Positions 16,671 through 53,821 of a stretch of DNA of 64,000 nucleotides are shown here, piece after piece. The notes under the pieces were generated by a model. It did no database searches and was not told where the DNA came from. It saw nothing but the letters and a program-made list of their open reading frames with translations. The translations under genes were made by a program, and so were the position numbers. Source of the DNA: Phycisphaerae bacterium (lineage in GTDB: Bacteria; Planctomycetota; Phycisphaerae; UBA1845; Fen-1342); NCBI GenBank assembly GCA_028279405.1, contig JANQNU010000036.1, positions 124,001 through 188,000 on the forward strand, written 5' to 3'. How positions within the stretch are numbered: the stretch's first letter is position 1; each line of letters opens with the position of its first letter.

Positions 16671-17963
16671 TCACTGCTGCGCCGACCAGCTCAGCAGTCG
16701 GGCGCCCAGCAAGTACCCGCCGACACCGATCGCCACTAGCAGTGCGAGTCGCAGGAGCATATCGGGGTCGGCCGGCGTCAGGCCGCGCCAGATCGCGCCT
16801 TCGAGGCTAAAGATCGCCCAGTTGACCGGGCTTACGACCGCTACCGATTGCATCCACTTGGGCATCACGAACGTCGGCACCATGGCCCCGCCGAGCATGG
16901 AGAGCATCAGCAGGATCGCCCAGCCGATGCCGCCGGCGGATGCTTCAGTGCGTCCCAGTACCGAGAGCAGCATCATGATGCCGACGAACCCGACGCCGCA
17001 GGCGCCGATGGCGAGGGCCAGAATCGGCCAGGAGTCGGGCTTCACGCCGAAGAAGAAGTACGCCACCGTGACCAGCAGCAGGCAGACGAACGTCGTCGAC
17101 AGGAAGCAGGCGAGCGCTTTACCGCCGAGGATCTGAAGGCGCGAAACCGGTGCGATCCGCAGGCGCGTGAGTGTGCCCTCACGTCGTTCGACGACCAGGC
17201 CGATGCCGAAAGCGGCGGAGCAGCCCATCAGACCCCAGACGATCGCCTGCGGGAAGGCGATTGCAAAGCTGTTGGTTGGACCCCGGCGTTGGCGGGTGAT
17301 GCTGACCATCTCGACTTCAAACGGGCGCCACTGGGCCATGGGGCTCGCCCCGGCATCATCCGTACCGCCTTGCATGACCGGGCTGGAGACGAACGTTCGC
17401 AGGCTGGTCAGGAACATGGTAAGGATCGGTGCGTCCGGGCTGTCGCTGTCACGGAGTTGCGCGAGGCTTTCGTCGACACTTTGACCGATCGTATCTGGGT
17501 CGCTGAACGATTTTTGGAACTCCTCGAATCCTTTGCGCATGATGAGCCCTTCGAGCAGTCCCGTTTCCGCGAAGCGCGCCGGGTCGGCCGCGATTTCGAC
17601 CTTCGCCGGATCGCCCCAGAACGGTCGACCAAGGGCCGTGCCGAAGCCGGGCATGACGCGCAGATACGCCGTTTGCCGCTGCAGCCGAACGTCCTCATGC
17701 GCGCGTTCCACCGAATCGTAGCGCGTCACAGCGATGTCCGGCGACTCGCGCAGACGCTCAACGAACGCCGTGGAGCGGGCGGATTGGTCCTCGTCGAGGA
17801 CGGCGATGCGGATCGCGGAGCGTGCCCGTGTACCGAATCCCGAGTAAAGGTAGCCGAAGAAGGTGGCATAGACGACCGGAAACACGACGGCGAAGAACAG
17901 CGCAGGCTTATCGCGCGTCAGCAGCCGCAGGTCCTTGATTGCCATGGTAAGGATCGCCGCCAT
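16671..17963 (-). CDS. ABC-2 type transporter permease
   Basis: 430-aa inner-membrane permease of an ABC exporter. One N-terminal helix (about residues 20-40) is followed by a large extracytoplasmic loop (to about 225), then five helices toward the C-terminus, the layout of the ABC-2 (DrrB/YhhJ-like) family. The start ATG (17961-17963) overlaps the TGA of the ATPase gene by one base (TGATG), which implies translational coupling. The substrate is unknown. It is the last gene of a four-gene minus-strand run that begins with phosphofructokinase. Confidence 0.88.
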   Translation of the reverse strand: MAAILTMAIKDLRLLTRDKPALFFAVVFPVVYATFFGYLYSGFGTRARSAIRIAVLDEDQSARSTAFVERLRESPDIAVTRYDSVERAHEDVRLQRQTAYLRVMPGFGTALGRPFWGDPAKVEIAADPARFAETGLLEGLIMRKGFEEFQKSFSDPDTIGQSVDESLAQLRDSDSPDAPILTMFLTSLRTFVSSPVMQGGTDDAGASPMAQWRPFEVEMVSITRQRRGPTNSFAIAFPQAIVWGLMGCSAAFGIGLVVERREGTLTRLRIAPVSRLQILGGKALACFLSTTFVCLLLVTVAYFFFGVKPDSWPILALAIGACGVGFVGIMMLLSVLGRTEASAGGIGWAILLMLSMLGGAMVPTFVMPKWMQSVAVVSPVNWAIFSLEGAIWRGLTPADPDMLLRLALLVAIGVGGYLLGARLLSWSAQQ

Positions 17964-18808
17964 CAGTCGCGTAGGCTCCTGCCGGTGAGGTTGAGGAATA
18001 CGGTCTCGAGATTGGGTCGCTCGATGTGGAGGTTCATGACGGCCGGGTCCGAGACCCGTTGCGAGACGACCTCGAGCGGCTTCGTCGTGGAGATCCGCTC
18101 ATCGCCCTGTTTGCGTTCGATGGTGACCACGCTGTCGCCGCCGTGGGCGTCGATCAGTCCGTTGACGGAATCGAGTGCAAGCAGTCGGCCGTGGTCCATG
18201 ATCGCGACGCGGTCGCAGAGTCGCTGGGCCTCTTCCATGTAGTGCGTGGTATAAACGACCGTTCGACCGTCGGCGTGCAACTCTCGAAGCAGTTCGAAAA
18301 TGGCCGTACGCGATTGCGGGTCGACCCCGACCGTTGGTTCGTCGAGCAGCACCAGGCGTGGGTCGTGGATGATGGCGGCCGCCAGGTTCAGCCGACGCTT
18401 CATGCCACCAGAATAGTGTCGTACGTAGTCCGTTGCGCGGTCGCGCAGTCCGACGCGCTCGAGCAATTTCTCGACGCGTGCATGGCGCGCGCGGCGGTCG
18501 AGATGATGCAGACGCGCGAAGAAGTCGAGGTTTTCGCGCCCGGTGAAATCGCCGTAGAGCGCCAGCGACTGCGGGGCAACGCCGAGTTGGGCGCGTACGT
18601 GCGGGCGCGTCGGCGTGCCGCTGTTGTTGAAGTCCACGGTCCCGCGGTCCGGTTCGAGCAGTCCGACCGCCATCGCAATCGTTGTCGTTTTTCCGGCCCC
18701 GTTGGGTCCGAGCATGCCGAAGAACTCGCCGGGTGCGATCGCCAGCGAGAGGTCGTCGACCGCCACAATGCGACCAAAAGACTTGAAGACGTTCGTGAGC
18801 GTCAGCAT
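17963..18808 (-). CDS. ABC transporter ATP-binding protein
   Basis: ATPase partner of the permease that follows. It has Walker A GPNGAGKTTT, the signature HYSGGMKRRLNLA, Walker B LVLLDEPTVGVDPQSR and the switch histidine in TTHYMEEA, in a 281-aa protein of the drug-exporter (DrrA/CcmA-like) class. ATG 18808 is chosen because it opens directly with the usual MLTLTNVFKSFG; a GTG at 18826 overlapping the previous stop would add six residues. The C-terminal ~70 residues are the small accessory domain typical of these exporters. Confidence 0.93.
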   Translation of the reverse strand: MLTLTNVFKSFGRIVAVDDLSLAIAPGEFFGMLGPNGAGKTTTIAMAVGLLEPDRGTVDFNNSGTPTRPHVRAQLGVAPQSLALYGDFTGRENLDFFARLHHLDRRARHARVEKLLERVGLRDRATDYVRHYSGGMKRRLNLAAAIIHDPRLVLLDEPTVGVDPQSRTAIFELLRELHADGRTVVYTTHYMEEAQRLCDRVAIMDHGRLLALDSVNGLIDAHGGDSVVTIERKQGDERISTTKPLEVVSQRVSDPAVMNLHIERPNLETVFLNLTGRSLRD

Positions 18809-20517: not shown

Positions 20518-23500
20518 TTAGGTACCCGTCACCAACGCCACGAAGCAGTTGATGTCGCCAATCGTCACTTTGTCGTCATTCGAACAGTCGGCGTTCAGGC
20601 GATCGCAGTCCGGGTAGGTCGATGCATATCCGGCCGGATCGATCAGTGCCTGCACAAACGGGTTGATATCGCCGACCGTGATCTGGCCATCGCAGTTCAG
20701 ATCGCCGTCCAACCCCACCGACGGACAATCGCGCGCAGTGCCATCGCCATCATCGTCGCGGCACGCGGCCCCGGCCCCCTGCCAAGTGCCCAGTATTGAA
20801 TCGCACGCCGGCTCCGACAGCGGCAGGCAGAACGTACCGGCAATACAACACGCGCCCGCTGGCGGGCAAGCGGCGATGACGCAATCGCTTCCGCCGCCGG
20901 CAAACAGCCCGGCTTGTGCAACACACTCCGTCGGATCGATGTCTTCGATGCAAACACCCGTGGCCAGGCAGCAAGCGCCGCTGACCGCACAGGTTGTGCT
21001 GTCACACAACACGTCGTCACCGGCGTATGTCCCGTCGGCATTTTCGCAGGCCATGACCGTCAGGCCGTCGGTGCACGTACCGTCAACGAAGCAGCAGGCG
21101 CCCGAGGGCTCGCACGCATCCGCGGTTCCGCTGCCGTCGAGATCTTCACAAGTGGTCTGTGGTCCGGCCCAGTTGGCGTCGACAGCAAGACAGTTGCCGA
21201 CCGGCCACTCGAGGCAGAAGCCCGTGTCGAAGCAGCAGGCGCCGGTTTGAAGGCACGGTTCTTCCGCGCAGGTAGTGCCGACGCCGAAGAAGTAACTGCC
21301 GAGTTGGTCGCAGCCGTCCGCCGTATCGATCGTGCACATTCCGTCACTATCGCAGCAGGCGCCGCTACGAACACACAAACCTGCGGTACAGGACACGTCG
21401 TCACCTTCGTAGATGCCGGCTTGTGCCGTGCACGCAGCTGCCGTGGCCACGACGCACGACTCGTCTGAAAGACAGCAGGCGCCCGTGGCTGCGGGAAGGC
21501 ATGTCTCCGCGGCGCATGGCGTCTGGTCCCCCTGGTACACGCCAGCCATTTGCTGGCAATCGTCGGCGGTCGCAATCTCGCAGCGATCGTCAGGCAGACA
21601 GCAGGCACCGCGCACGGGGCATGTAACGTTCATACAAGCGGTCGCATCACCTTCGTAGACGCCGCCGCCGGCAGTGCACGCGTCCTCCGTCAACGATTCG
21701 ATGCAGGAACCGTCGGGCTGGCAGCAGGCGCCGCGCGGCATGCAGTTGCTCGCTGCACAGCGGGAGGCGCTCCCTTGCCAGACACCGCCGGCGCTGGCGC
21801 AGTCAGCTGTCGTCGTATCGTCGTCGCACGTTCCATCGTCGCGGCAGCAGGCCCCGATCGCCGTGCAGCTTGTTTCGGCACAGGTCAGGCCGAGTTCGAA
21901 GACACCGCCGTTCTGGTCGCATTCGAATGCCGTCCGGGTCTCGTCGCAAAGCCCGTCGCGCGTGCAGCACGCCCCGGACTCGCAAACGTCCGGCGTCATG
22001 TTCTTGTTCGCGTCCTCACAGGTGGTCGCGGCGCCTTGCCAGCGTGCTCCGGCAGAGACGCAATCGCTCAACGGTAAAACGAAACAGGTGCCGTTTGCGA
22101 AGCAGCACGCACCCGCATCGGTACACGACGCGGTTGCGCAGGTCGTATCGTCGCCGCGATAGACCGCGCCGGTCGTGACGCACGCCGTGCGATCGACAGC
22201 GTCGTCGCAGATACCGCCGGCCCGACAGCAGGCACCGGTCGGAGGGCACCAGGTCGTGTCGCAGGTCGTGGCATCGCCGACATAGTTTCCGTTGAGGGCG
22301 GTGCAAGCGGTCTCGTCCAGCGCGTTCTGGCAGGTCGCATCGGGCAGACAGCAGGCGCCGAATGGGGTGCAGGTGACATCGGCGCACACCGTACCGTCGC
22401 CTTGATAGATGCCGCTGGTGGTGTCGCAGTCTGTCATCGATCGTTCGTCGCAGCCGCCTGCAGGCGTGCAACATGCACCGGTTACGGTGCAGGTGGCCAT
22501 CGCGCAGAGAACGCCTTCACCTTGGAAGATGCCGGGCTGAGCGACACAGTCGGTCGCGCTGACATTGTCCAGGCAGGCTCCGTTCGGCAGGCAGCAGGCG
22601 CCTGGCGCAGCGCAATCGACACTGTCGCAGACGGCGCCGTTTGGATCGTACGCGCCGCCTTTCTGCGTGCATTCCTCTTCCGTGAGGTCCTGGCAGTCGC
22701 CGCCCGGCAGGCAGCAGGCGGCAAAAGCGACACAGCTTGCACCCGCACATGAGGTCGAGGCTCCTTGCCAGAGGCCGTTGACTTTGTTGCATGCGGTTTC
22801 CGACGCAGCCTCGAAGCACGTTCCGTTTGGTCGACAGCATCCGCCACGCTGGCAAAGGTCCGCGACGGCATTGTTGTCGCCGTCCGCGCAATTGGTGCTG
22901 AGCCCTGCCCAGATGCCTCCGGCACCGGCGCAGTCCGCTTCGGAGAGCAACAGACAGAATCCGTTGAAACAGCAGGCGCCGTCGGCTTCGCACGCGTCCG
23001 GCACGCCGTCGGCGAGTCCCTCGACGATGTATGCGGCCCCCGCATTGCCGGCCGGCGTATCGTTCTGCGGTCCGCCGACCAGGATCCGATCGGCGCGGGC
23101 GTCGATACTGGCGCCGAACCAGTCTCCGCCTCCGCTGTCGGCGGCATTAAGTTTGCCGGTCAGGCTCCATCGGTCGTTCGTGCGACGATAAACGTACACG
23201 GCGCCAGTGGTGTCAGCGCTACGTGCGCCGGCGAAAAGGAGATCGCCGTGCACGTCCAGCGAGACGCCGAACGCAGTAGCGCCGCTCTGGTCAGGCGGTT
23301 CGAGTGTTTGCTGAAGCGTCCAGTCTCCGGTGTCGTTGGTGTAGAGATGAACACGGCCGGTCGCGTTTCCGATTTCGCCGACCGCGAGCGTGTCGGCGTC
23401 GATCGCGACAGCGGTTCCGAACAACCCTCCGACGCTGGGGGTCGGTGGATCGATTCGCGTGCCGGTGTCCCACGTGGCGCCGTCGTGGGAGAAGATGTAC

Positions 23501-24222
23501 GCCGACCCGGCATCACTCGTGGCGCCGACGTTGTGGAGTTGAGCGCCGACGACGACACGTGCGTCTTCGACGGCCACAGCGATTCCGAACAAATCATCGG
23601 TTGCACCGTCGGCCGCTACCAGTTTCGCTTCCTGCTGCCACGTGCCGCCAACGTCGCGGAAAACGTAGGCAGCCCCGCGTCCGTCGGCGCCGGAAGCGCC
23701 GCCAACGACGAGCGTACCCTTGATTGCGACCGACTCGCCGAGGAAGGCCGACGCGCCGGCATCGTCCGCAGTCAGCTTGCGGAGCTGTGCCCAGGATTGC
23801 CCGTCGTGCCCGAACAAGTAGATTGCGCCGCGGCCGTCGAATACGCCGGTATTGTCGGCGTTTCGCGCCCCGACCACGGCTGTCGCGTTGTCGATTGCGA
23901 GCGACCAGCCGAAGAGCGCCAGTGGCTGCGGATCGGTCGGTGCCAGTTGTTGCGTGATGCTCCAGGTCCCCGGCGGATCCTCGGCGAATGCGTAGACTGT
24001 CCCGGCGTTGTTGCCCTGGTCGTCGTCGAAGTAAGCACCGACGAGCAGCCTGCCGTCAGTCAGGCCGACTGCTCGTCCGAAACGATCGCCGCCGGCAACG
24101 TCGGGTGCGTCGAGGCGCACAGCCGACGTATCGGTGCAGACCGGTGTTTTCCCAGCATGCACGATCGGCGTGAGAAGCAAGGGCAACAGGATCACGATCG
24201 ACCTTCGGCTGGTTGCGCGCAT
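20518..24222 (-). CDS. Secreted FG-GAP protein with 18 Cys-rich repeats and dockerin-like tail
   Basis: 1234-aa exported protein. ATG 24222 is chosen over 24252 because it opens a clean Sec leader (MRATSRRSIVILLPLLLTPI, cut after VHA) with GGAA upstream. Residues ~25-410 are FG-GAP-type propeller repeats (for example GGDRFGRAVGLTDGRLLVGA). From about residue 415 to 1160, 18 tandem units of about 41 residues follow, each opening GACC (units 2 and 3 vary) and holding six cysteines in the order CC-C-C-C-C with a G-x-Y/W-x-G core. The tail has a dockerin-like pair (DLNCDGQITVGDINPF and NDDKVTIGDINCF). Disulfides within each unit are likely. Adhesion or matrix binding is a guess. Confidence 0.82.
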   Translation of the reverse strand: MRATSRRSIVILLPLLLTPIVHAGKTPVCTDTSAVRLDAPDVAGGDRFGRAVGLTDGRLLVGAYFDDDQGNNAGTVYAFAEDPPGTWSITQQLAPTDPQPLALFGWSLAIDNATAVVGARNADNTGVFDGRGAIYLFGHDGQSWAQLRKLTADDAGASAFLGESVAIKGTLVVGGASGADGRGAAYVFRDVGGTWQQEAKLVAADGATDDLFGIAVAVEDARVVVGAQLHNVGATSDAGSAYIFSHDGATWDTGTRIDPPTPSVGGLFGTAVAIDADTLAVGEIGNATGRVHLYTNDTGDWTLQQTLEPPDQSGATAFGVSLDVHGDLLFAGARSADTTGAVYVYRRTNDRWSLTGKLNAADSGGGDWFGASIDARADRILVGGPQNDTPAGNAGAAYIVEGLADGVPDACEADGACCFNGFCLLLSEADCAGAGGIWAGLSTNCADGDNNAVADLCQRGGCCRPNGTCFEAASETACNKVNGLWQGASTSCAGASCVAFAACCLPGGDCQDLTEEECTQKGGAYDPNGAVCDSVDCAAPGACCLPNGACLDNVSATDCVAQPGIFQGEGVLCAMATCTVTGACCTPAGGCDERSMTDCDTTSGIYQGDGTVCADVTCTPFGACCLPDATCQNALDETACTALNGNYVGDATTCDTTWCPPTGACCRAGGICDDAVDRTACVTTGAVYRGDDTTCATASCTDAGACCFANGTCFVLPLSDCVSAGARWQGAATTCEDANKNMTPDVCESGACCTRDGLCDETRTAFECDQNGGVFELGLTCAETSCTAIGACCRDDGTCDDDTTTADCASAGGVWQGSASRCAASNCMPRGACCQPDGSCIESLTEDACTAGGGVYEGDATACMNVTCPVRGACCLPDDRCEIATADDCQQMAGVYQGDQTPCAAETCLPAATGACCLSDESCVVATAAACTAQAGIYEGDDVSCTAGLCVRSGACCDSDGMCTIDTADGCDQLGSYFFGVGTTCAEEPCLQTGACCFDTGFCLEWPVGNCLAVDANWAGPQTTCEDLDGSGTADACEPSGACCFVDGTCTDGLTVMACENADGTYAGDDVLCDSTTCAVSGACCLATGVCIEDIDPTECVAQAGLFAGGGSDCVIAACPPAGACCIAGTFCLPLSEPACDSILGTWQGAGAACRDDDGDGTARDCPSVGLDGDLNCDGQITVGDINPFVQALIDPAGYASTYPDCDRLNADCSNDDKVTIGDINCFVALVTGT

Positions 24223-24463
24223 ACGGGTTCCATGGTGCTTGGTTGAACACATTATTCCTTGTTATCGGGGAGTTTGCGCGACCCGATGCCGCACTCGGCG
24301 TGCCGTGCGCCGTTTCGGCGCCGACGCCGATGGTGAGTGGCGCAACTCTTGCGCGGCGTCAAGCCGATACGAGGCAAGTAGTGTCCTTCATTCCTCGAAG
24401 GGAACGCACCCCATGGTCGCTGGTAGCAAGCTACCCGTGCCACCCGTTCGTCAAGCTTGCCGA
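24223..24463. repeat. Intergenic region with repeat fragments
   Basis: Contains the palindrome GGTAGC-AA-GCTACC (24422-24435) followed by the GTGCCACCCG end that also closes both MITE-like units near 48.7 kb. It also holds the half-site GGAACGCACC (24401-24410) of the palindrome complete at 29473 and 49009. No gene is seen. Confidence 0.55.
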
Positions 24464-27283
24464 TCACTCCACGCGGTCGGCGGGCAGCAGCACGTACGCC
24501 ACGCCGCCGGTGGCCTGGAGCCAGACGCGGTCGAGATCCTCGCGGTAATAGGTCAGCCGACCGTCCTTTGGTGGGGCGACGGCGGGGTCGTTCACGAGCA
24601 CGTTTCCAGCAGCGTCGAAGCCGGTGATCACCAGCAGGTGGCCTGCGGTCTTCTTGTAAGGGGCGTTTCGTAGCATTCCTTCTTGTGGCGCGCGGATCGA
24701 AATGATCAACGGCTGGCCCTTGTGGATCATGGTGGCGACGTCGTCCCAGTTCGAGAAGCGCGTCAGGTAACCGGGCACGCCGAAGGAGTAGGCGGCTTGA
24801 ACGCAGCGCGGCCAGTTTCCGTAGATGTCATGAGTTGCATCGTAGGCGCGCTGCGCGACCGTTTCGGTTGGTTGACGGACGCCGCGAAATTCCATGACCA
24901 TTGCCACTGAAGTCGGACTGCAGATCCGTCCTGCGATGTCCGCCGATGCACTGCGCTGGCTGCGGAATGGTACGGGCAGGCGGCGCGGCACGACGTCGCG
25001 CGGCACGGCGTTCTGTGGCGCGGATTCGGACGGGCCGCAATCAGGGATTCCGAGTGTGTCGCTCGTGCATGTAGTGATGCGTCGGATCGCGATCGTGACG
25101 GGTTCGGGCGCGTTCGACCAGCCGAGGACTCGGTATTGCAGCCGATCGAGAAGCTGTTCGGACCGGAAATAGTCGACATCGATCTTACCGAGGTCGGACG
25201 CAACCGTCGGCATTGTCTCGGAGGGCACATTGCCCCAATCGCCGACACGCATCCAAGGGGACCAGATATCGTCGTTTACGCGCCCGACGCGCAGCTCGAT
25301 CGCTGCACCGGCACCGGCCGGAACGTCGAGATTCCATGACAGCAACGCCTCGTTGAACGCGCGTTTCGGTTTGAGGATTGGTCCTGGCGTCACCGTTTCA
25401 CGTTTCGCGGTGATCTGCGATCCGGTTTCCGCGACGATCAACTCGTGGCGCGCCGGGGCGGGCTTGGATTCCGGACAGAGGAAGTCGTCGAGATCGGCGG
25501 CCATGCGTTCGAGGTACTCCTGTCCGCGGGGATGGTGGGTCGCGCCGGCCAGCAGATACACGTGGTCTCCGTGGCGCACGCGGGCCGTGTCGAGGTGCCA
25601 GTTCTCCCACAAGCCACTCTTGCGGATGATGGTCAGATCCCGTCCGTTCAGTCCGCGGACGAACTTGGTGTTGTGGAAGTCCAGGTCGGGTGCGCGAAAA
25701 ATCTGGCGAAGTTTCGCGGAAACGCGCGGATTGACGAGCTTGCCCTGTTCCATGAGCAGGTAGTAGCGCAGGCACTGACGAACGGTGACGGCGTGCGAGT
25801 GGTCCCCGACCGGGTCGCCGACGCGCGGCGTGTCAAGGCCGTAGTGCTTGCCGCACCAGAGCCCGCCGCCGGTATCTTCGTCATAGAGACCATACTTGTC
25901 GTCGCGCACCATTTTCTGCAGGAAATCGAGTCCGACGATCTGGCTGTACTTGGCTGCCAGCTCGTTGTCGGAGCGTTTGATAACCTGCATCAGCTCCAGT
26001 TCGGTCTGCGCGTCGAGCGTTTGGAGCCGCTGGAGATCCTGTTGGAAATAGCCGGCCACGATGCAGATTTTCGGTACGCTGGCACCGTAGAAGACCGCGT
26101 CCGGCCGCAGGGCGGCGTAGCGCAGTTGTGTGAGATCGAGTACGGCAAAGGCGCGGTGCTTTTCGTCCATCGTCAGTGCGGCGCGGGCGCGTCCGTCGGC
26201 CTTCTCCATCGCCAGTCGCAGGGCGTCGTCTTGCGCGGCGTCGGCGGGCAAGCGGAACGACTGCAGTTGCATGGCGTGCGACCAGTCCCGGGGGAAGCCC
26301 GGCTCGTGCAGCGGCCAAGCGGTGATTTCCTTCGCAAGCGACTTGGGGTTCATCCGCGTGGCCCGTGGTTCCCTCCGGGCGCGCGCCATGCGCACCTCGG
26401 CGTCCGGTCGCAGGCGCAGGATTTTGATTCCGACGCAGCGCTTGTCGGACTCGAGGTAGTCGATGAGCGGCTCTTCGCGGACTGTCGGTCTTGCCGAGTG
26501 AAGAAAGTTGACCGAGTCGCCATGCGCGATCAGGCCGGTGTGACCGCACCATTGTGCGTCGCTATCGCCGCGAACGATGTTGACGAAGTCGGCGTCTTGC
26601 AGCTCGTCGAGGATCTCGGGCACGCGCTGCTTGGGAACATAGCTGTCGCTGATGGGTTCATCGGGCACATCCTGACCGATGCCGAATCGTGCAAAGAACC
26701 GCGCCCGGCGTAAGGTCTGCGTGAGCGGGACGTGCACCTGGCCGTTACCGAGTCGGGTCGTGATATCCTCGAAAAGGAAGTCGTTGTTGCGGTTCCACTC
26801 CGCGACGGTGTAGTGATTGCGCGTGAGCATCCCGATCTGCCCATCGCGGTAGCGGATGCGCTGCAGGTTGGCAAGGAACTCCCACCAGTCGTCCGCCATT
26901 GCCATGGCATACATATGTTCGGCGTGTGTCAGACAGTCGCTGCGCGTGAGGCAGTAGAGTGGATCGGGATCGTGCCCTTCGAACGGGAATTCTCCGAGTA
27001 AGTAGATCTCATAGGGCTGGCCGATGTTCTTGCGCGCCAGGTGCACGATTCGGCGTTTGACATCGCGCTCACGGGCGTGCAAGGACCGAAGGTAGCGATC
27101 CACCTCGGCTTCGCTGAAGGTGTACAGTGGTCGCGCCTCCAGCGGACGGCTGTCCGCCGTCTGTGCAACCCGTTCGGGGAGGTGCGGCGCCTCCGAGGTC
27201 GACGTCTCTCGCCGACCGGATGCGCAACCCACCAGCGCGGCCATTCCCAGACCGACGATCATCCACGCCCGACGATGGACCAT
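24464..27283 (-). CDS. Lipoprotein fusing DUF1460, class A beta-lactamase-like and C39-like peptidase modules
   Basis: 939-aa probable cell-wall-acting lipoprotein. ATG 27283 follows AAGGAG by 7 bases and opens a lipoprotein leader ending LVGCAS. Module 1 (about residues 60-320) resembles DUF1460 NlpC/P60-type amidases: Cys117 in SDCLTHAEH and His248 in CGHTGLI. Module 2 (about 360-610) has all three serine beta-lactamase/PBP motifs: SVPK (Ser402, Lys405), SDN (438-440) and KSG (555-557). Module 3 (about 765-935) resembles C39-like cysteine peptidases: Cys788 in RICSPTSVAM, His882 in AGHLLVITGF, then NDPA. All catalytic residues appear intact. A Pro/Gly-rich beta region separates modules 2 and 3. 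Peptidoglycan stem peptides are the likely substrate, by inference. Confidence 0.85.
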   Translation of the reverse strand: MVHRRAWMIVGLGMAALVGCASGRRETSTSEAPHLPERVAQTADSRPLEARPLYTFSEAEVDRYLRSLHARERDVKRRIVHLARKNIGQPYEIYLLGEFPFEGHDPDPLYCLTRSDCLTHAEHMYAMAMADDWWEFLANLQRIRYRDGQIGMLTRNHYTVAEWNRNNDFLFEDITTRLGNGQVHVPLTQTLRRARFFARFGIGQDVPDEPISDSYVPKQRVPEILDELQDADFVNIVRGDSDAQWCGHTGLIAHGDSVNFLHSARPTVREEPLIDYLESDKRCVGIKILRLRPDAEVRMARARREPRATRMNPKSLAKEITAWPLHEPGFPRDWSHAMQLQSFRLPADAAQDDALRLAMEKADGRARAALTMDEKHRAFAVLDLTQLRYAALRPDAVFYGASVPKICIVAGYFQQDLQRLQTLDAQTELELMQVIKRSDNELAAKYSQIVGLDFLQKMVRDDKYGLYDEDTGGGLWCGKHYGLDTPRVGDPVGDHSHAVTVRQCLRYYLLMEQGKLVNPRVSAKLRQIFRAPDLDFHNTKFVRGLNGRDLTIIRKSGLWENWHLDTARVRHGDHVYLLAGATHHPRGQEYLERMAADLDDFLCPESKPAPARHELIVAETGSQITAKRETVTPGPILKPKRAFNEALLSWNLDVPAGAGAAIELRVGRVNDDIWSPWMRVGDWGNVPSETMPTVASDLGKIDVDYFRSEQLLDRLQYRVLGWSNAPEPVTIAIRRITTCTSDTLGIPDCGPSESAPQNAVPRDVVPRRLPVPFRSQRSASADIAGRICSPTSVAMVMEFRGVRQPTETVAQRAYDATHDIYGNWPRCVQAAYSFGVPGYLTRFSNWDDVATMIHKGQPLIISIRAPQEGMLRNAPYKKTAGHLLVITGFDAAGNVLVNDPAVAPPKDGRLTYYREDLDRVWLQATGGVAYVLLPADRVE

Positions 27284-27318
27284 CTCGTGCTCCTTGGATC
27301 CGCGGGTATCCTTGGCAG

Positions 27319-27334: not shown

Positions 27335-27384
27335 TACGCTTGCCATGATAACGGATGGTATCCGCCGCTTGCAGGAGGCAAACC

Positions 27385-28638
27385 GTGGCGAAATCGGCAC
27401 GTAAGACGACCAAGAAGCCAGCTTCTCGAAAGCCAGCGACCAACGGCAAGGCGACGTCCGCCAAGACCGGGCGCTCCGCGTCCGGCAAATCCAGTGCGGC
27501 GAGACGAAAGGTCGACCGGGTGGCCGCAGGTCGGCGAATCACGGATATGGCCTCATCGATCGCGGGGCTGGTCGACGGCGAGAGCGATCCGTTCATCGAA
27601 ATCCCCTCGCGCACGCTTAGCAACGTGCAGTTCAACGAGAAGCGCGGCATCATCGAGCTGCTCGACGGCAAACAGAAGCGATTCTTCTTCAGCCTGCTCG
27701 GTCGGCGAAAAGGTGAGGGCAGCCAGGCAAAGAAGTTCATGCAGACCGTCCGCGTCGCCGAGGTATGCAAGCGGCTGATCGACGCGACGGATTCCACCAG
27801 CATCCGTGATCTCTTCTACAACCTCAAGATGCCGATCAAGACGCTCGATGGCAAGCCGGCCAAGGAGCTGATCTTCAACGAGCAGGCCGAGTCCGACCCG
27901 GTGATCGAGGACGTCGAGGTGACCGTCAATGCGCTCCGCGAAGAGCTGGGCGTGCACGCGGAGCCGAAAGGCGCGATGGTCGGGCCGATGACGATCGTCG
28001 ACGATGGCGACACCATCGACCTGACCACCATGGGCTCCGGCGGATGGCAGGTACCGAGCATCGTCGAGCCCAAGGTGATCCAGTTCAAGAAGTGCAGCGC
28101 CAAGTTCATCCTGCTGATCGAGAAGGGTGCGGTCTGGCAGCGCTTCAACAAGGACCGCTTCTGGCAGAAGCACAAGTGCATGATCATCCACGGCGGGGGC
28201 CAGCCGCCGCGCGGCGTGCGGCGATTGTGCTATCGGATGCACGCCGAACTGAAGCTGCCGTTGTATGTGCTCGTGGATAATGACCCGTGGGGTTACTACA
28301 TCTACAGCGTCATCAAGCAGGGCTCGATCAATCTTGCGTTCGAGAGCCAGCGGATGGCGATCCCCGCGGCGCGTTTCGTCGGCATGAGCAGCTTCGATGC
28401 GATGGAATTCGACATTCCGGCGCACGTGCCGATGCCGCTGACCGATGAGGATCGTCGACGGGCACGCGAGATCCGCAACTACCCCTGGTTCCAAAGCCGC
28501 GCCTGGCAGCGCGAGATCAAGCGAATGGAATCGCTCGGCGTAAAGCTCGAGTTGGAAGCACTCAGCAACAAACACTTCAGCTTCATCACCGAAGAGTACC
28601 TGCCGCGCAAGCTCAAGAGCCGCAAGTGGCTGGACTGA
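27385..28638 (+). CDS. top6A: DNA topoisomerase VI subunit A (Spo11/Top6A family)
   Basis: Catalytic DNA-cleaving subunit of a type IIB topoisomerase. GTG 27385 is chosen because AGGAGG (27373-27378) lies 6 bases upstream. The 417-aa protein opens with ~55 Lys/Arg/Ala/Ser-rich residues, then a winged-helix CAP domain with catalytic Tyr145 in SIRDLFYNLK, and a Toprim domain with Glu246 (LIEKGAVWQRF), IHGGGQPPRG and the LVDNDPWG metal site (Asp298, Asp300). Spacing and motifs fit archaeal Top6A. Bacterial topo VI is uncommon and normally needs a GHKL ATPase subunit B, which is not seen in this window. The basic N-tail is an extension relative to the core fold and may aid DNA binding. Confidence 0.9.
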   Translation: MAKSARKTTKKPASRKPATNGKATSAKTGRSASGKSSAARRKVDRVAAGRRITDMASSIAGLVDGESDPFIEIPSRTLSNVQFNEKRGIIELLDGKQKRFFFSLLGRRKGEGSQAKKFMQTVRVAEVCKRLIDATDSTSIRDLFYNLKMPIKTLDGKPAKELIFNEQAESDPVIEDVEVTVNALREELGVHAEPKGAMVGPMTIVDDGDTIDLTTMGSGGWQVPSIVEPKVIQFKKCSAKFILLIEKGAVWQRFNKDRFWQKHKCMIIHGGGQPPRGVRRLCYRMHAELKLPLYVLVDNDPWGYYIYSVIKQGSINLAFESQRMAIPAARFVGMSSFDAMEFDIPAHVPMPLTDEDRRRAREIRNYPWFQSRAWQREIKRMESLGVKLELEALSNKHFSFITEEYLPRKLKSRKWLD

Positions 28639-32744: not shown

Positions 32745-34256
32745 ATGAAGTTCATCGGCTGGATGTACGATATCGCGCGCGAACAGTCCCCATCGGACGA
32801 TGACCTGGACGCGCTTTGTGCGAAATCGCTCGCGAGCGGGTACAACGTCCTTGGTCTCTACCTGGAGCATCGTTTCGAATATCCCTCGGCACCCTGGGCT
32901 GTCGCTCCAGGGGCCCTGAGCGGGAGGGTCGTGCGGGCGCTACAGGACAAGTATGTAGCTCGCGGGCTGCGGATCATCCCGTTTCTCAACACGCTCGGAC
33001 ACATGGAAGGTTTCGTGCGGGCCGTTGGCGGCGGGCACCTTTCCGAAGGGCCGCGCGTCGGAGCGGCGCAGCTCTGTCCGTTGCATCCGGAAACCGTGCC
33101 CTTCGTTCAAGGCCTCATCCGGGATGCGCTCGCGGTATTTGACGACGAGTGGCTTCACATTGGCGGCGACGAGACCCAGCAACTCGGCCAGTGCCCGCGA
33201 TGCGCGGCGCGCGTTGCCGAAATCGGCAAGGCTGGCCTATACGGAGAGTACTATGGGGCGCTGACGCGCTGGGTGCTGGAACAGGGCCGCCGGCCGTGTC
33301 TGTGGGGCGACATGCTGCTCGAACACCCCGAGGCCATGGACCACCTGCCGCGGGAGACGGTGATCTTCGACTGGCAGTACGAGCAGCGGCCGCACGATAC
33401 CTCGGCGCGCTTTCGCGAAGCGGGCTTCGACGTCGTCTGCTGCCCGAGCATCCAGACGTATAACTCCGGCTGGTGCTATCTGGAACCCACCCAGCGCTAC
33501 ATCGACGAACACCGCGAAGACGCGCTCGCGCTGCGGGCGGAAGGTGTACTGGTCACGACCTGGGAGTTTGCCTACTTTCAGGACTATCCATCGACGTTGC
33601 CGATCGTCTACGCGGCGGGTCGCCGACTGGCGCAGGGTGCCGCATGGGAGGACGCGATTCGCGCGGAGGGTGGTGAATCGTACGCGCGCCTGGCGGAGAT
33701 TCTCGGAGAAACGCTGCCACAGACGTGCGACTTCTTGCGGCCGCCGACGTGGCGCCAACTCCGCGACCGGTTCGTCATGCGACAGAACCCCTTCGCGCTA
33801 TGGCAGGTGTGGCGCGACGATGCCTGCGGGCCGGTCGGCGACCGGATTCTGACGCTGTGTGAAGAGGCCGATAATCAAGGGCCGCGCGAGAATTTGGTTG
33901 GAGGTGCGCTGGAGTTGCACGCGGTCGCGGTACACTTTGTAAGGCGGGTCGAAGAGGCGAACCGAGCGTGGGAATCTGCTCGCTATTCGGATGTGATCGA
34001 GTCGCTGCAGCAGGCGGAGCAGACGTTGCTCCGTTTGCAAGCGGGCCTGTCGGCCACCGCGTCGGCGGGCGGCTCACCGGTGGATCCGCATCGGCTCGAG
34101 CGGTTGTGTTCGAAGGTGCGCGTTGCGGCGCAGCGTGTGGCGGAGTTTGCCGAGCAGCCCCCCGTTTCCGGCTATCGTCCGACCTTTGAGGTGCTCGTGC
34201 ATGATTCATGGCTGCCGGAAGATCAGGCGGCGTGGCGCGCGGGAATGATTGTCTAG
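32745..34256 (+). CDS. GH20-like beta-N-acetylhexosaminidase
   Basis: 503-aa predicted glycoside hydrolase. ATG 32745 has AAGG 7 bases upstream. The first ~330 residues form a TIM-barrel with the family-20 signature HIGGDET, whose Asp142-Glu143 pair is the expected catalytic acid and its helper. Earlier PFLNTLGHMEGF and later WGDMLLEHP fit the same fold. The usual N-terminal GH20 beta domain is absent, as in minimal bacterial forms. The C-terminal ~150 residues are alpha-helical (a possible coiled coil). There is no signal peptide, so it is probably cytoplasmic. Substrates would be N-acetylhexosamine-containing sugars. Confidence 0.82.
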   Translation: MKFIGWMYDIAREQSPSDDDLDALCAKSLASGYNVLGLYLEHRFEYPSAPWAVAPGALSGRVVRALQDKYVARGLRIIPFLNTLGHMEGFVRAVGGGHLSEGPRVGAAQLCPLHPETVPFVQGLIRDALAVFDDEWLHIGGDETQQLGQCPRCAARVAEIGKAGLYGEYYGALTRWVLEQGRRPCLWGDMLLEHPEAMDHLPRETVIFDWQYEQRPHDTSARFREAGFDVVCCPSIQTYNSGWCYLEPTQRYIDEHREDALALRAEGVLVTTWEFAYFQDYPSTLPIVYAAGRRLAQGAAWEDAIRAEGGESYARLAEILGETLPQTCDFLRPPTWRQLRDRFVMRQNPFALWQVWRDDACGPVGDRILTLCEEADNQGPRENLVGGALELHAVAVHFVRRVEEANRAWESARYSDVIESLQQAEQTLLRLQAGLSATASAGGSPVDPHRLERLCSKVRVAAQRVAEFAEQPPVSGYRPTFEVLVHDSWLPEDQAAWRAGMIV

Positions 34257-34284: not shown

Positions 34285-35190
34285 ATGTACGCGATCGAGA
34301 CCACAAAGCTGACCAAGCGCTATGGAGACTACGAAGCGCTGCGAGCGGTCGATCTCCAGGTGCCGACAGGGTCGGTCTTTGGTTTTCTGGGGCCGAATGG
34401 GGCGGGGAAGACCACGACGATTCGCATCCTGCTCGGGCTCTTGCGAGCGACGGCCGGACGTGCGCGCGTTCTGGGCCTCGATGTCTGGACGGACGGGCCG
34501 CCGTTGCGGCAACAGGTGGGGTATCTACCCGGCGATGTGCGATTCTATGATCACCTGACCGGGCGGGCGGTGTTGCAGTTCGCCGACGCGGTTCGCGGCT
34601 CGAAGGCGGCGGCCGAGGTCGAACGGCTGTCGTCACTGTTCGTTCTGCAACTGGATAAGCGCGTGCGTGACTATTCGCGCGGGATGAAACAGAAGTTGGG
34701 GTTGATCCTGGCGATGATGCATCGGCCGCGGCTGCTGATTCTCGACGAGCCGACAACCGGTCTCGACCCGTTGATGCAGCAGACCCTGTATGCGGAGTTG
34801 CGGGTGTTCGCTGAGGAGGGTCGCACGATCCTGTTCTCGAGCCACACGTTGTCGGAGGTGGACGACTTGTGCGATCATGTCGCGATCTTGCGACAGGGGG
34901 CGTTGATCGAGCAGGACCGCATCGAGGTGTTGCGCCGTCGGGCGGTTCGGCGGGTTGAGGTCACACTCGCCGACGGTCGACCGTGTGCCGCGCCGCCGAG
35001 CGCGCTGCACGTTCAGGAGCAATCGGGGACGCGGATCATCGGATCCTGGACTGGTGAGGTCACGGCGCTGCTGAAGTGGCTGGCGGAATCGCCGATAGCG
35101 GACGTCGTGATTGCCGAACCGCGGTTGGAGGATCTGTTCCTGGCGTTCTACAACGAATCCGGGGGAGTCGCCGACGCGGGCGCCAACTGA
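34285..35190 (+). CDS. ABC transporter ATP-binding protein, no permease adjacent
   Basis: 301-aa ATPase with Walker A GPNGAGKTTT, signature DYSRGMKQKLGL, Walker B LLILDEPTTGLDPL and switch SSHTLSE. Length and the C-terminal accessory domain fit ABC-2 type exporter ATPases. It begins 28 bases after the GH20-like gene and is followed by the HtrA gene, so no permease gene lies next to it on either side. It may pair with a permease elsewhere. Confidence 0.9.
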   Translation: MYAIETTKLTKRYGDYEALRAVDLQVPTGSVFGFLGPNGAGKTTTIRILLGLLRATAGRARVLGLDVWTDGPPLRQQVGYLPGDVRFYDHLTGRAVLQFADAVRGSKAAAEVERLSSLFVLQLDKRVRDYSRGMKQKLGLILAMMHRPRLLILDEPTTGLDPLMQQTLYAELRVFAEEGRTILFSSHTLSEVDDLCDHVAILRQGALIEQDRIEVLRRRAVRRVEVTLADGRPCAAPPSALHVQEQSGTRIIGSWTGEVTALLKWLAESPIADVVIAEPRLEDLFLAFYNESGGVADAGAN

Positions 35191-51235: not shown

Positions 51236-53821
51236 ATGCTTCGACGTTATCTGGGCGCCATCGCGTGCGTTATCGGCGCCGCGCTACCCGTGCATGCGGG
51301 CATCGTTCTCGACCGGGCAACCGCCGTGGATGCAGTGATCGCCGAACTCGGGATCACGGATCCGATCGAACAAGCCGTTTGGTCATCGTATTCGGACCAC
51401 GGCTTCGGCGCGGGCTTCGAGGGCCTTTTCCCGGCTGGGACGACCATCCGGCCGGCCAAGGCTGACTCCGGCAACGAAGTCACCCTGGTTGCCCCTATGT
51501 ATGTGTTCATGGTGGACGACGATCCACGGGCAGCGTTCGAGCATGACGTCCGATTCGTCTACGTCGACGCGACCGCTGCGACGCCCAACGTCGTCGATGG
51601 CACGATCGTCGCTCAGGACCAGAGTTGGTGGCCGGTGGTCACGCTCCCGGGCGGGAAGACGGAAGAGGAGATCTACGGGCCCTATAACGGGACCAGCAAC
51701 GAGCCGGCCGGCGCGTCGAATCCGGACGGTTTCGTCTTCGGCCACCTCGAGCTCGGCGACGGCCTGCTGGCGCTGCCGGCATCCGTTGGACTCGGCGGCG
51801 GCGGGCCGGCGGCGCAGAATCCATGCGGCCTGATCATCACCGGGGTCGACCCCAACTCCAATCGCGCCAATGACAAGGCCTTTGACGGCAGTGCGGATGC
51901 CATGAAGCAGCAGCTTCGCAACGACGGCGTGCCCGCCAATCGGATCCAGGACAAGCGACACGCCAAGCAGTCGGATATCACCGCGGCAATCACGGCGTTG
52001 TGCAATCTCAACCCGCCATGCGACAAGATCTACGCCTACATCGGCGCCCATGGTTACGCCGCCCAGGGAACCACGGAGGGTGGCATCGAGCTGAACGATG
52101 GCAGCGGAAACATCGAGAACGTCCCCGAATCCAAGATCTGCGAATTGTTGAAGCCACTCGGCGACAAGAACGTCCCGGTCTGCATGTTCATCGAGAGCTG
52201 CCACGGCGGTGAGTTCGTGGACACGCTGCGTCCGAAATTCAAGCAGGGCATCATCATCACCGGCGCCGACGCCAACAACAAAACCTGGATGGACAACGTG
52301 ACTGGCGCTGGCCACATCGGTTTTTACATGTGGGCGTTTCTGCGCTGCCTGAACTCGACGGATCCAGCCGCCGACCTCGATGGTGACGGCAATGTCAACT
52401 GGGCAGAGGCCTTCAAGTGGGTTTGTGTCGGAGACAACGGCAAGGTTCCCTGGGGCGGGCGCCAGTGGGACGTGAAGACAAAGAACCCGGTTCTTTCGGG
52501 TCTACCGACCACTTATAAGAACTGGACCGCACCCGGCTCGGGGCGCAAGTACACCGAGTGCTTCTACGACACGGACAATGACGGTGCTTACGATCGCCAC
52601 GACTGGGGTGTGGACCTCGATTGTGACGGTAACCTCGATTACCTCTACCTCGAAGATGACAAGGACGAGGACGGCAAGCCCGAACGTAAGGTGTGCTTCT
52701 ACGACGATGATGACGACGGCGACTTCGATCGTCGCGTCGAGTTCTCGGACACCGACGACGACGGCACCTGGGACGGGATCGAGCTTTGTTTTAACAACAA
52801 CGGCAACTGGGAGCCGATCGCGTTCGCGCCGCGGCGCTCGGTCAACCGGATGTCGGTGCAGCCCAATGCCGGTCCGCGCGACGGCGGCGTCCCGGTCGAG
52901 ATCATCGGCAACGGCATCAACTGGAATCCGGACACGGAACTGTGCGTGATCCTTGGTTCGAACGTCGAGTTCTACAAGCCGCTCGGCCCCAATCAGCTCT
53001 TTGCGCAGACCCAGGGGTACTGGGAAGGTCCGCAGGACGTGATCATCATCGACTTCAACCCGGACAGCCCGTCTCACGGCTTCGACCAGCTGCAGAACGG
53101 CTACTTCTATCAGCCCGAGTTGCGCATCGACTTCGTCGATCCGGCGCATCTGCCTTGCGAGTTGGACTCGCTGCTGCATGTCTTCGGTCACCAGTTCAAC
53201 CCCAACACGCAGGTCTTCATCGAAGGCCAGCCGCTCCCGACCACGTTCATCACGCCTGGTGAACTGCACGTCGACGTTCCCGGCGGTCTCTTCTGCGATC
53301 AACTCGTCGGTGTTGAAGTGCTCAACCCGGATGGTTCGAACATGTTCGCACCGGAGTCGTTGCTGTTCGGTCCGCCGCTGGACCTGCTGCCGCCGCAGAT
53401 CCTGTGCCCGGATCCGCTGCAGCTGACCGCCGGTCCTACCGGTTGGGTTCCCTTGCCGCCGTTCTATACGGCTGATGGCCAGGACCTGTCCGGACCGGTC
53501 CTAATCACGCGCAACACGCTTGGCGCTCTATCTGTCGGTCAAACGCAGATTGAGTTCGAGGCCCGCGATGCGTCCGGCAACACGACGACGTGCACGTCGA
53601 TCGTTCGCGTCCAGCCCGGCGGTGGCTTGCTCGGCGACATGAACTGCGACGGCGTCGTCAGCGTGAGCGACATCAACGCGTTCGTTCTGGCGTTGACCGA
53701 TCCGGCGGCGTACCAGGCGCAGTTCCCGGATTGCGACATCCAGAACGGTGACATGAACGGTGACGGTGTTGTTTCCGTCGGCGACATCAACGGCTTCGTC
53801 TCGGCCGTGACCGGCGGCTAA
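51236..53821 (+). CDS. Secreted caspase-like cysteine peptidase with EF-like, IPT/TIG, HYR and dockerin-like domains (copy 1)
   Basis: 861-aa exported protein, ATG 51236 with a near-perfect AAAGGAGGT 5 bases upstream. Sec leader MLRRYLGAIACVIGAALPVHA. About residues 22-190 look like a propeptide. Residues ~200-380 have a caspase/legumain-type (clan CD) fold with His272 in YIGAHGYAAQ and Cys322 in FIESCHGGEF, an intact dyad. Residues ~445-520 are Asp-rich calcium loops (DTDNDGAYD, DDDDDGDFDRR). Two IPT/TIG-like domains and an HYR-like domain follow, then a dockerin-like tail ([30 protein letters not shown]). The neighbour at 54250 is a close paralogue. Substrate and trigger are unknown; calcium activation is a guess. 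Confidence 0.83.
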   Translation: MLRRYLGAIACVIGAALPVHAGIVLDRATAVDAVIAELGITDPIEQAVWSSYSDHGFGAGFEGLFPAGTTIRPAKADSGNEVTLVAPMYVFMVDDDPRAAFEHDVRFVYVDATAATPNVVDGTIVAQDQSWWPVVTLPGGKTEEEIYGPYNGTSNEPAGASNPDGFVFGHLELGDGLLALPASVGLGGGGPAAQNPCGLIITGVDPNSNRANDKAFDGSADAMKQQLRNDGVPANRIQDKRHAKQSDITAAITALCNLNPPCDKIYAYIGAHGYAAQGTTEGGIELNDGSGNIENVPESKICELLKPLGDKNVPVCMFIESCHGGEFVDTLRPKFKQGIIITGADANNKTWMDNVTGAGHIGFYMWAFLRCLNSTDPAADLDGDGNVNWAEAFKWVCVGDNGKVPWGGRQWDVKTKNPVLSGLPTTYKNWTAPGSGRKYTECFYDTDNDGAYDRHDWGVDLDCDGNLDYLYLEDDKDEDGKPERKVCFYDDDDDGDFDRRVEFSDTDDDGTWDGIELCFNNNGNWEPIAFAPRRSVNRMSVQPNAGPRDGGVPVEIIGNGINWNPDTELCVILGSNVEFYKPLGPNQLFAQTQGYWEGPQDVIIIDFNPDSPSHGFDQLQNGYFYQPELRIDFVDPAHLPCELDSLLHVFGHQFNPNTQVFIEGQPLPTTFITPGELHVDVPGGLFCDQLVGVEVLNPDGSNMFAPESLLFGPPLDLLPPQILCPDPLQLTAGPTGWVPLPPFYTADGQDLSGPVLITRNTLGALSVGQTQIEFEARDASGNTTTCTSIVRVQPGGGLLGDMNCDGVVSVSDINAFVLALTDPAAYQAQFPDCDIQNGDMNGDGVVSVGDINGFVSAVTGG

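Follow-up and report, generated by a model that had tools for sequence, protein, structure and literature searches.

A recurrently shuffled three-enzyme lipoprotein of Phycisphaerae planctomycetes, probably involved in the dismantling of peptidoglycan fragments

The enzymes of the DUF1460 (AmiA) family are known from peptidoglycan recycling; the DUF1460 enzyme of Bacteroides reportedly cuts the bond between MurNAc and L-Ala, and the characterized enzyme is said to work on small muropeptides. These proteins are NlpC/P60-type amidases with a Cys-His-His triad (PMC10318531), and several structures have been solved (2IM9, 2P1G, 4H4J/4Q5K/4Q68). PBP-A of Thermosynechococcus (2J7V), a DD-carboxypeptidase and endopeptidase, contains a leucine, Leu158, at the position that in class A beta-lactamases holds the deacylating Glu166 (PMC11189452). 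Natural enzymes without this glutamate, namely PBP-A and LRA-5, which has Val166, have little or no activity as lactamases (PMC11189452, PMC12777564) and, in the case of LRA-5, the MICs are the same as those of control strains (PMC12777564). Relevant here are also the Peptidase_C39_2 proteins (e.g., PDB 3ERV) and the D-Ala-D-Ala dipeptidases VanX/DdpX (Peptidase_M15).

The window, that is, the entire 64,000-nucleotide stretch of DNA analyzed here, belongs to a Phycisphaerae planctomycete and encodes a 939-aa protein at 24464..27283 on the minus strand (ATG at 27283, stop codon at 24466-24464); the initial annotation had the coordinates and the length right and did not give the strand. The reading frame stays open in the 5' direction as far as a GTG at 27400, a possible alternative start that would overlap the 5' end of the divergently transcribed gene for topoisomerase VI A (27355). 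We place the start at ATG 27283 because a Shine-Dalgarno-like AAGGAG (27290..27295, minus strand) is located 6 nt upstream of it. The protein has the sequence hallmarks of a bacterial lipoprotein, namely, a signal peptide with the lipobox LVGC (27224..27283, minus strand), in which the predicted lipid-anchored residue is Cys20, and the corresponding alignment column is at least 90% conserved among the 12 full-length relatives.

Three Pfam domains, each scoring above its Pfam cut-off, were detected in this protein, namely, AmiA/DUF1460, Beta-lactamase2 and Peptidase_C39_2, so that each of the modules matches its family (PF07313, PF13354 and PF13529, respectively); no NCBIfam model matched the 939-aa protein. 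The full-length AlphaFold2 model has a pLDDT of 91.5 and a pTM of 0.88, with low confidence confined to about the first 39 residues, and modules 1 and 2 of the model match 2IM9 and 2J7V, respectively. The following residues are invariant in all 12 full-length proteins, which come from ten genera and, apart from the window's own protein, are 52-56% identical to it: Cys117, His248, His262, Ser402, Lys405, Ser438, Asn440, Lys555, Gly557, Gln776, Cys788, His882, Asn898 and Asp899. Such invariance, which for the catalytic residues extends to the alignments of the individual modules (46, 36 and 16 rows), is therefore not due to chance. Together, the Pfam scores, the invariant residues and the model bear out the original proposal that a single lipoprotein combines three intact hydrolase modules, and Cys117, His248, SVPK 402, SDN 438, KSG 555, Cys788 and His882 are all found where they had been placed; the annotation did not include His262 and a beta domain described below.

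Module 1 (residues 46-305; 26369..27148, minus strand) shares both sequence and fold with AmiA of Bacteroides and the rest of the DUF1460 family. The PF07313 (AmiA-like) profile matches residues 85-281 with an E-value of 1e-24 (87.5 bits vs a cut-off of 27), and comparison of the module, as it appears in the full-length model, with 2IM9 yields Z 26.6 and rmsd 2.4 over 245 residues; in the Foldseek ranking for the lipoprotein model, 2IM9 comes first and PBP-A second. The invariant Cys117 (26933-26935), His248 (26540-26542) and His262 (26498-26500), all on the minus strand, align with the Cys-His-His triad, and we assign His262 as the residue that completes it because such a triad has been described for DUF1460 (PMC10318531). 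The solved DUF1460 chains consist of 240-333 amino acids, whereas module 1 is the N-terminal part of a multi-enzyme lipoprotein.

Module 2 (residues 339-606; 25466..26269, minus strand) is a serine hydrolase of the class A lactamase/PBP-A fold, as indicated by PF13354, the fold match to 2J7V and hhalign. The PF13354 (Beta-lactamase2) profile matches residues 379-578 just over the cut-off (E 2e-5, 24.4 bits vs 22), and the class A motifs are all present, namely, SxxK (402-405), SDN (438-440) and KSG (555-557), whose motif columns include Ser402 (26078-26080), Lys405, Ser438 (25970-25972), Asn440 and Lys555 (25619-25621), on the minus strand. The best match among lactamase-fold structures is PBP-A, 2J7V (Z 25.5, rmsd 2.9, 234 residues), with the best class A lactamases close behind (Z about 24-25). 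An hhalign comparison with PBP-A (E 3e-8) places SVPK on STIK, SDN on SDN, KSG on KTG and Val492 (25808-25810, minus strand) on Leu158; the HMMER alignment is shifted out of register in the segment from SxxK to the omega loop, and we chose the hhalign alignment because it puts SDN on SDN. By this profile alignment, the catalytic Glu166 of class A beta-lactamases has no counterpart in module 2: the corresponding column contains V in 20 rows, L in 19 and I in 7, with Glu in 0 of the 46, so that the module, like PBP-A, combines a class A fold with an aliphatic residue where Glu166 would be. Given that PBP-A is the best match and that V, L or I occupies this position in 46/46 rows, module 2 is probably a DD-carboxy/endopeptidase rather than a beta-lactamase. 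Of the initial description of this module as a transpeptidase or lactamase-fold enzyme, the fold thus stands and the beta-lactamase alternative is disfavoured. The identity to PBP-A is only about 20%, and the distance between the serines of SxxK and SDN is 36 residues vs 61 in PBP-A; this spacing, shorter by 25 residues, identifies module 2 as a divergent branch which, unlike PBP-A, has a distinct GLWxGKHYG...GDPxxDHSH omega-loop region, which includes Lys479-His480-Tyr481 and His497, and is fused to other enzymes.

The serine hydrolase is followed by an all-beta, non-catalytic sandwich or jelly-roll domain (about residues 612-765; 24989..25450, minus strand; AlphaFold2 pLDDT 84) that has no Pfam match. 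Its fold matches are weak and generic (Kex2/furin P domain, lectins, viral capsid; Z 8-9), and a search of PDB sequences with the jelly-roll profile gave chance-level matches only; in all relatives seen, this domain is the immediate N-terminal neighbor of C39. Module 3 (residues 766-932; 24488..24988, minus strand) is, judging from Pfam and the invariant residues, a C39-like cysteine peptidase: PF13529 (Peptidase_C39_2) matches residues 769-901 with an E-value of 1e-18 (68.4 bits vs a cut-off of 24), and Gln776, Cys788 (24920-24922), His882 (24638-24640), Asn898 and Asp899 (24587-24589), on the minus strand, correspond to the Gln, Cys, His and Asn/Asp of Peptidase_C39_2 proteins. The difference from these proteins lies in the context: no ABC transporter is present on the chain, and the jelly roll and the serine peptidase stand before the C39 module. 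Bacteriocin-processing C39 peptidases have an ABC transporter as partner and double-glycine leaders as substrates; ABC-type genes are found in the window at 17963-18808 and 34285-35190, several kb from the lipoprotein gene.

Matches to the lipoprotein are present in 52 of the 114 genomes of the host's order. A search of genome contigs detected relatives with an alignment as the query, whereas a single-sequence query gave none. The full amidase-serine-jelly-C39 layout was found in ten genera that belong to three families, in two cases with an added M15 domain, so that the architecture is conserved in other planctomycetes, a check that had been named beforehand. Origin of the fusion as an assembly artefact is rejected on the grounds of its recurrence in ten genera and in independent assemblies, including the single-chromosome CP070691 and CP054190. 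The other architectures identified with BLAST and Pfam are amidase-serine, amidase-serine-M15, amidase-serine-jelly-C39-M15, amidase-jelly-C39-M15, in which the serine module is missing, serine-jelly-C39, NAGPA-serine-jelly-C39 and S9-jelly-C39, along with every module alone; in the S9-jelly-C39 protein (L082), the C39 module is fused to a prolyl oligopeptidase. M15, the VanX-like dipeptidase family, is a module of relatives only, with no such domain in the window's protein; it appears as a fourth module in L059, L064 and L069-L073 (Pfam for L059, L064, L069 and L073, and blastp for the named copies). The fusion relatives that have names are mostly Phycisphaerales/Phycisphaerae MAGs, and all those with named records derive from MAGs or uncultured bacteria. 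The amidase alone was found in Opitutae, Sumerlaeota, KSB1, Neomarinimicrobiota and Alteromonas, the serine module alone in Verrucomicrobiota, Acidobacteriota and Planctomycetota, and, in a phylum-wide sample, it was mainly the C39 half of the lipoprotein that was detected. To the extent of our limited literature search, neither this layout and its shuffling nor, as had been surmised, any enzyme with this order of modules has been described; the lipoprotein represents a new architecture made of known parts.

In the phylogenetic tree of the amidases, all fused forms comprise one clade (88/94), and in that of the serine modules, a branch (99/90) separates the stand-alone proteins from the others. 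Because of these two groupings, the trees fit a single fusion of amidase and serine modules, after which modules were gained and lost, with moderate support for the deeper forks; the tree of the jelly roll and C39 is poorly resolved. The window's amidase clusters with amidase-serine-M15 proteins (96/86); the serine module of the same protein clusters with that of L067 (100/57), and this split placement could reflect module exchange. The genome to which L067 and L068 belong encodes both a serine-jelly-C39 protein and a separate amidase-serine protein, the latter with the serine module on a long branch and SEN replacing SDN; a split and relaxation after duplication is a possible explanation for this pair. 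In another genome (G263), a second gene (L091:1808-3958, minus strand) joins what by eye is a zinc-amidase-like (Amidase_3-like) N-terminal half to a serine module. The amidase-serine-M15 protein L111, from a record titled Alphaproteobacteria, falls among Phycisphaerae in both trees, and the source is likely a mislabelled or contaminated MAG.

To characterize the genomic context, we compared 21 loci of the same order that encode an amidase-first fused chain, the window included, with 11 single-module loci; some of these loci come from close relatives, so that fewer independent lineages than loci are represented. NagB-type genes are present in 11/21 fused loci vs 0/11 single-module loci, and ROK regulators in 7/21 vs 0/11. 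Among the fused loci, GH20 (with the window included) and AXE1 are each found in five, metallophosphatase-PQQ in eight, and M15, within or beside the gene, also in eight. In the window, the gene for a GH20 beta-N-acetylhexosaminidase-like protein (32745..34256, plus strand; PF00728, E 2e-16) is homologous to the GH20 genes adjoining relatives of the lipoprotein, and lies 5.5 kb from the lipoprotein gene on the opposite strand, in a separate transcript. The neighbors of L067 are Amidase_2, NAGPA and a LysA-like gene, and L057 has next to it a gene (L057:11373-14564, plus strand) in which an M15 dipeptidase, a transglutaminase-like domain and Beta-lactamase (PF00144) are on one chain; a Transglut + PF00144 version of it is found at L055:12188-15679. 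The window also contains, immediately 3' of the lipoprotein gene (20518-24252, minus strand), the gene for a secreted-looking 1244-aa protein with FG-GAP repeats, then numerous Cys-rich repeats of the GACCxxDGxC type and a dockerin-like C-terminus. The divergent neighbor of the lipoprotein gene (27355-28638, plus strand) encodes subunit A of DNA topoisomerase VI, a mostly archaeal enzyme, subunit B of which is encoded elsewhere in the genome (C81:21206). Farther away, two tandem paralogue-like genes (51236-53821 and 54250-56841, plus strand; 861 and 863 aa) have near-identical starts, and the 861-aa product contains IPT/TIG and HYR domains.

The window's genome contains six Mur-ligase-family matches, and therefore probably encodes its own peptidoglycan synthesis. 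It also has a NamZ-type exo-muramidase and, on another contig, NagB. Since neither M15 nor SLT nor AnmK was found in this genome (estimated 95.5% complete), the search leaves the recycling route via anhydro-muropeptides incomplete; this route is weakened in particular by the absence of SLT and AnmK. An alternative for the dismantling of peptide-free glycan is the Bacillus pathway, in which NamZ acts together with a hexosaminidase.

That the function of the lipoprotein is peptidoglycan-related is well supported, whereas the finer role is weakly resolved. We consider it probable that the protein is a lipid-anchored envelope enzyme that dismantles soluble peptidoglycan fragments or stem peptides, for recycling or scavenging, because the architectures combine stem-peptide enzymes (AmiA, PBP-A-like, M15) and NAGPA, and because NagB, ROK, GH20 and M15 surround the fused genes while Mur ligases, NamZ and NagB are encoded in the genome; the peptidoglycan turnover suggested initially is thus indirectly supported by domain families and gene neighbors. 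From what was observed, namely, the families and folds, the invariance of the catalytic residues, the lipobox, the repeated reshuffling of modules and the gene neighborhood, we infer possible substrates, an order of cuts and a cell location. Module 1 would cut the MurNAc-L-Ala bond and free the stem peptide; module 2, as a PBP-A-like serine peptidase, would take off the terminal D-Ala or open D-Ala cross-links; module 3, the C39 cysteine peptidase, would cut the remaining peptide; and the jelly roll might be a spacer or binding domain. The released sugars would pass to GH20/NamZ and NagB-type enzymes, a VanX-like M15 dipeptidase joined to the same chain might contribute in the relatives, and the source of the fragments could be either the wall of the host itself, in which case the system would serve recycling, or foreign bacteria, in which case it would serve scavenging. 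In view of the S9 fusion in L082, the substrate of the C39 module could be something other than peptidoglycan. Conceivably, although here we are doubtful, one polypeptide assembled by repeated module exchange carries out the entire dismantling of the stem peptide as a one-piece recycling machine, with the substrate handed between packed sites for sugar release, D-Ala trimming and peptide cutting and, in the relatives, D-Ala-D-Ala splitting.

Should the same enzymes face outward, they would degrade peptidoglycan remains of foreign bacteria, and the cell would import the amino sugars and amino acids as nutrients. Such scavenging or predation as the specific role appears rather unlikely: it is compatible with the lipoprotein nature of the protein, with the GH20, NagB, ROK and GntR-regulator neighbors, which resemble a catabolic, inducible set, and with the failure to find AnmK and SLT in the genome, but the host has Mur ligases for peptidoglycan synthesis of its own and DUF1460 is familiar from recycling. 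An action on the intact sacculus, in division or cross-link editing, instead of on soluble fragments, is improbable, even though PBP-A-like modules can be DD-endopeptidases (PMC11189452) and glycan binding by the jelly roll is conceivable. Only 52/114 genomes of the order have any match to the lipoprotein, so that roughly half lack it, which would be odd for a core division enzyme, and division genes were not seen nearby. Furthermore, the DUF1460 enzyme that has been characterized reportedly acts on small molecules of the muropeptide type.

The initial annotation also raised the possibility of defence against peptide antibiotics, for which we found nothing in support. In its full form, in which module 2 is a genuine class A beta-lactamase and peptide antibiotics are destroyed by the C39 module, this explanation is very improbable: the SxxK, SDN and KSG motifs and the matches of class A lactamases to the fold agree with it, but PBP-A matches better, the Glu166 position is aliphatic throughout, enzymes of this kind are poor or inactive lactamases (PMC11189452, PMC12777564), and the genes next to the relatives are concerned with sugars and the cell wall.

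The presence of peptidoglycan in planctomycetes was disputed until 2015 (PMC4432595, PMC4432640), and in the literature searched we found no paper describing its turnover or salvage in these bacteria. By the Rosetta-stone argument, the fusions link the DUF1460, PBP-A-like, C39-like and M15 enzymes functionally, and suggest that C39-like and lactamase-like proteins now annotated by family name alone have a role in peptidoglycan metabolism; the stand-alone PBP-A-like proteins of Verrucomicrobiota and Acidobacteriota, in particular, could pass wrongly for resistance genes. The conserved and repeatedly shuffled combination of stem-peptide enzymes in a single polypeptide offers a concrete way into planctomycete peptidoglycan turnover.
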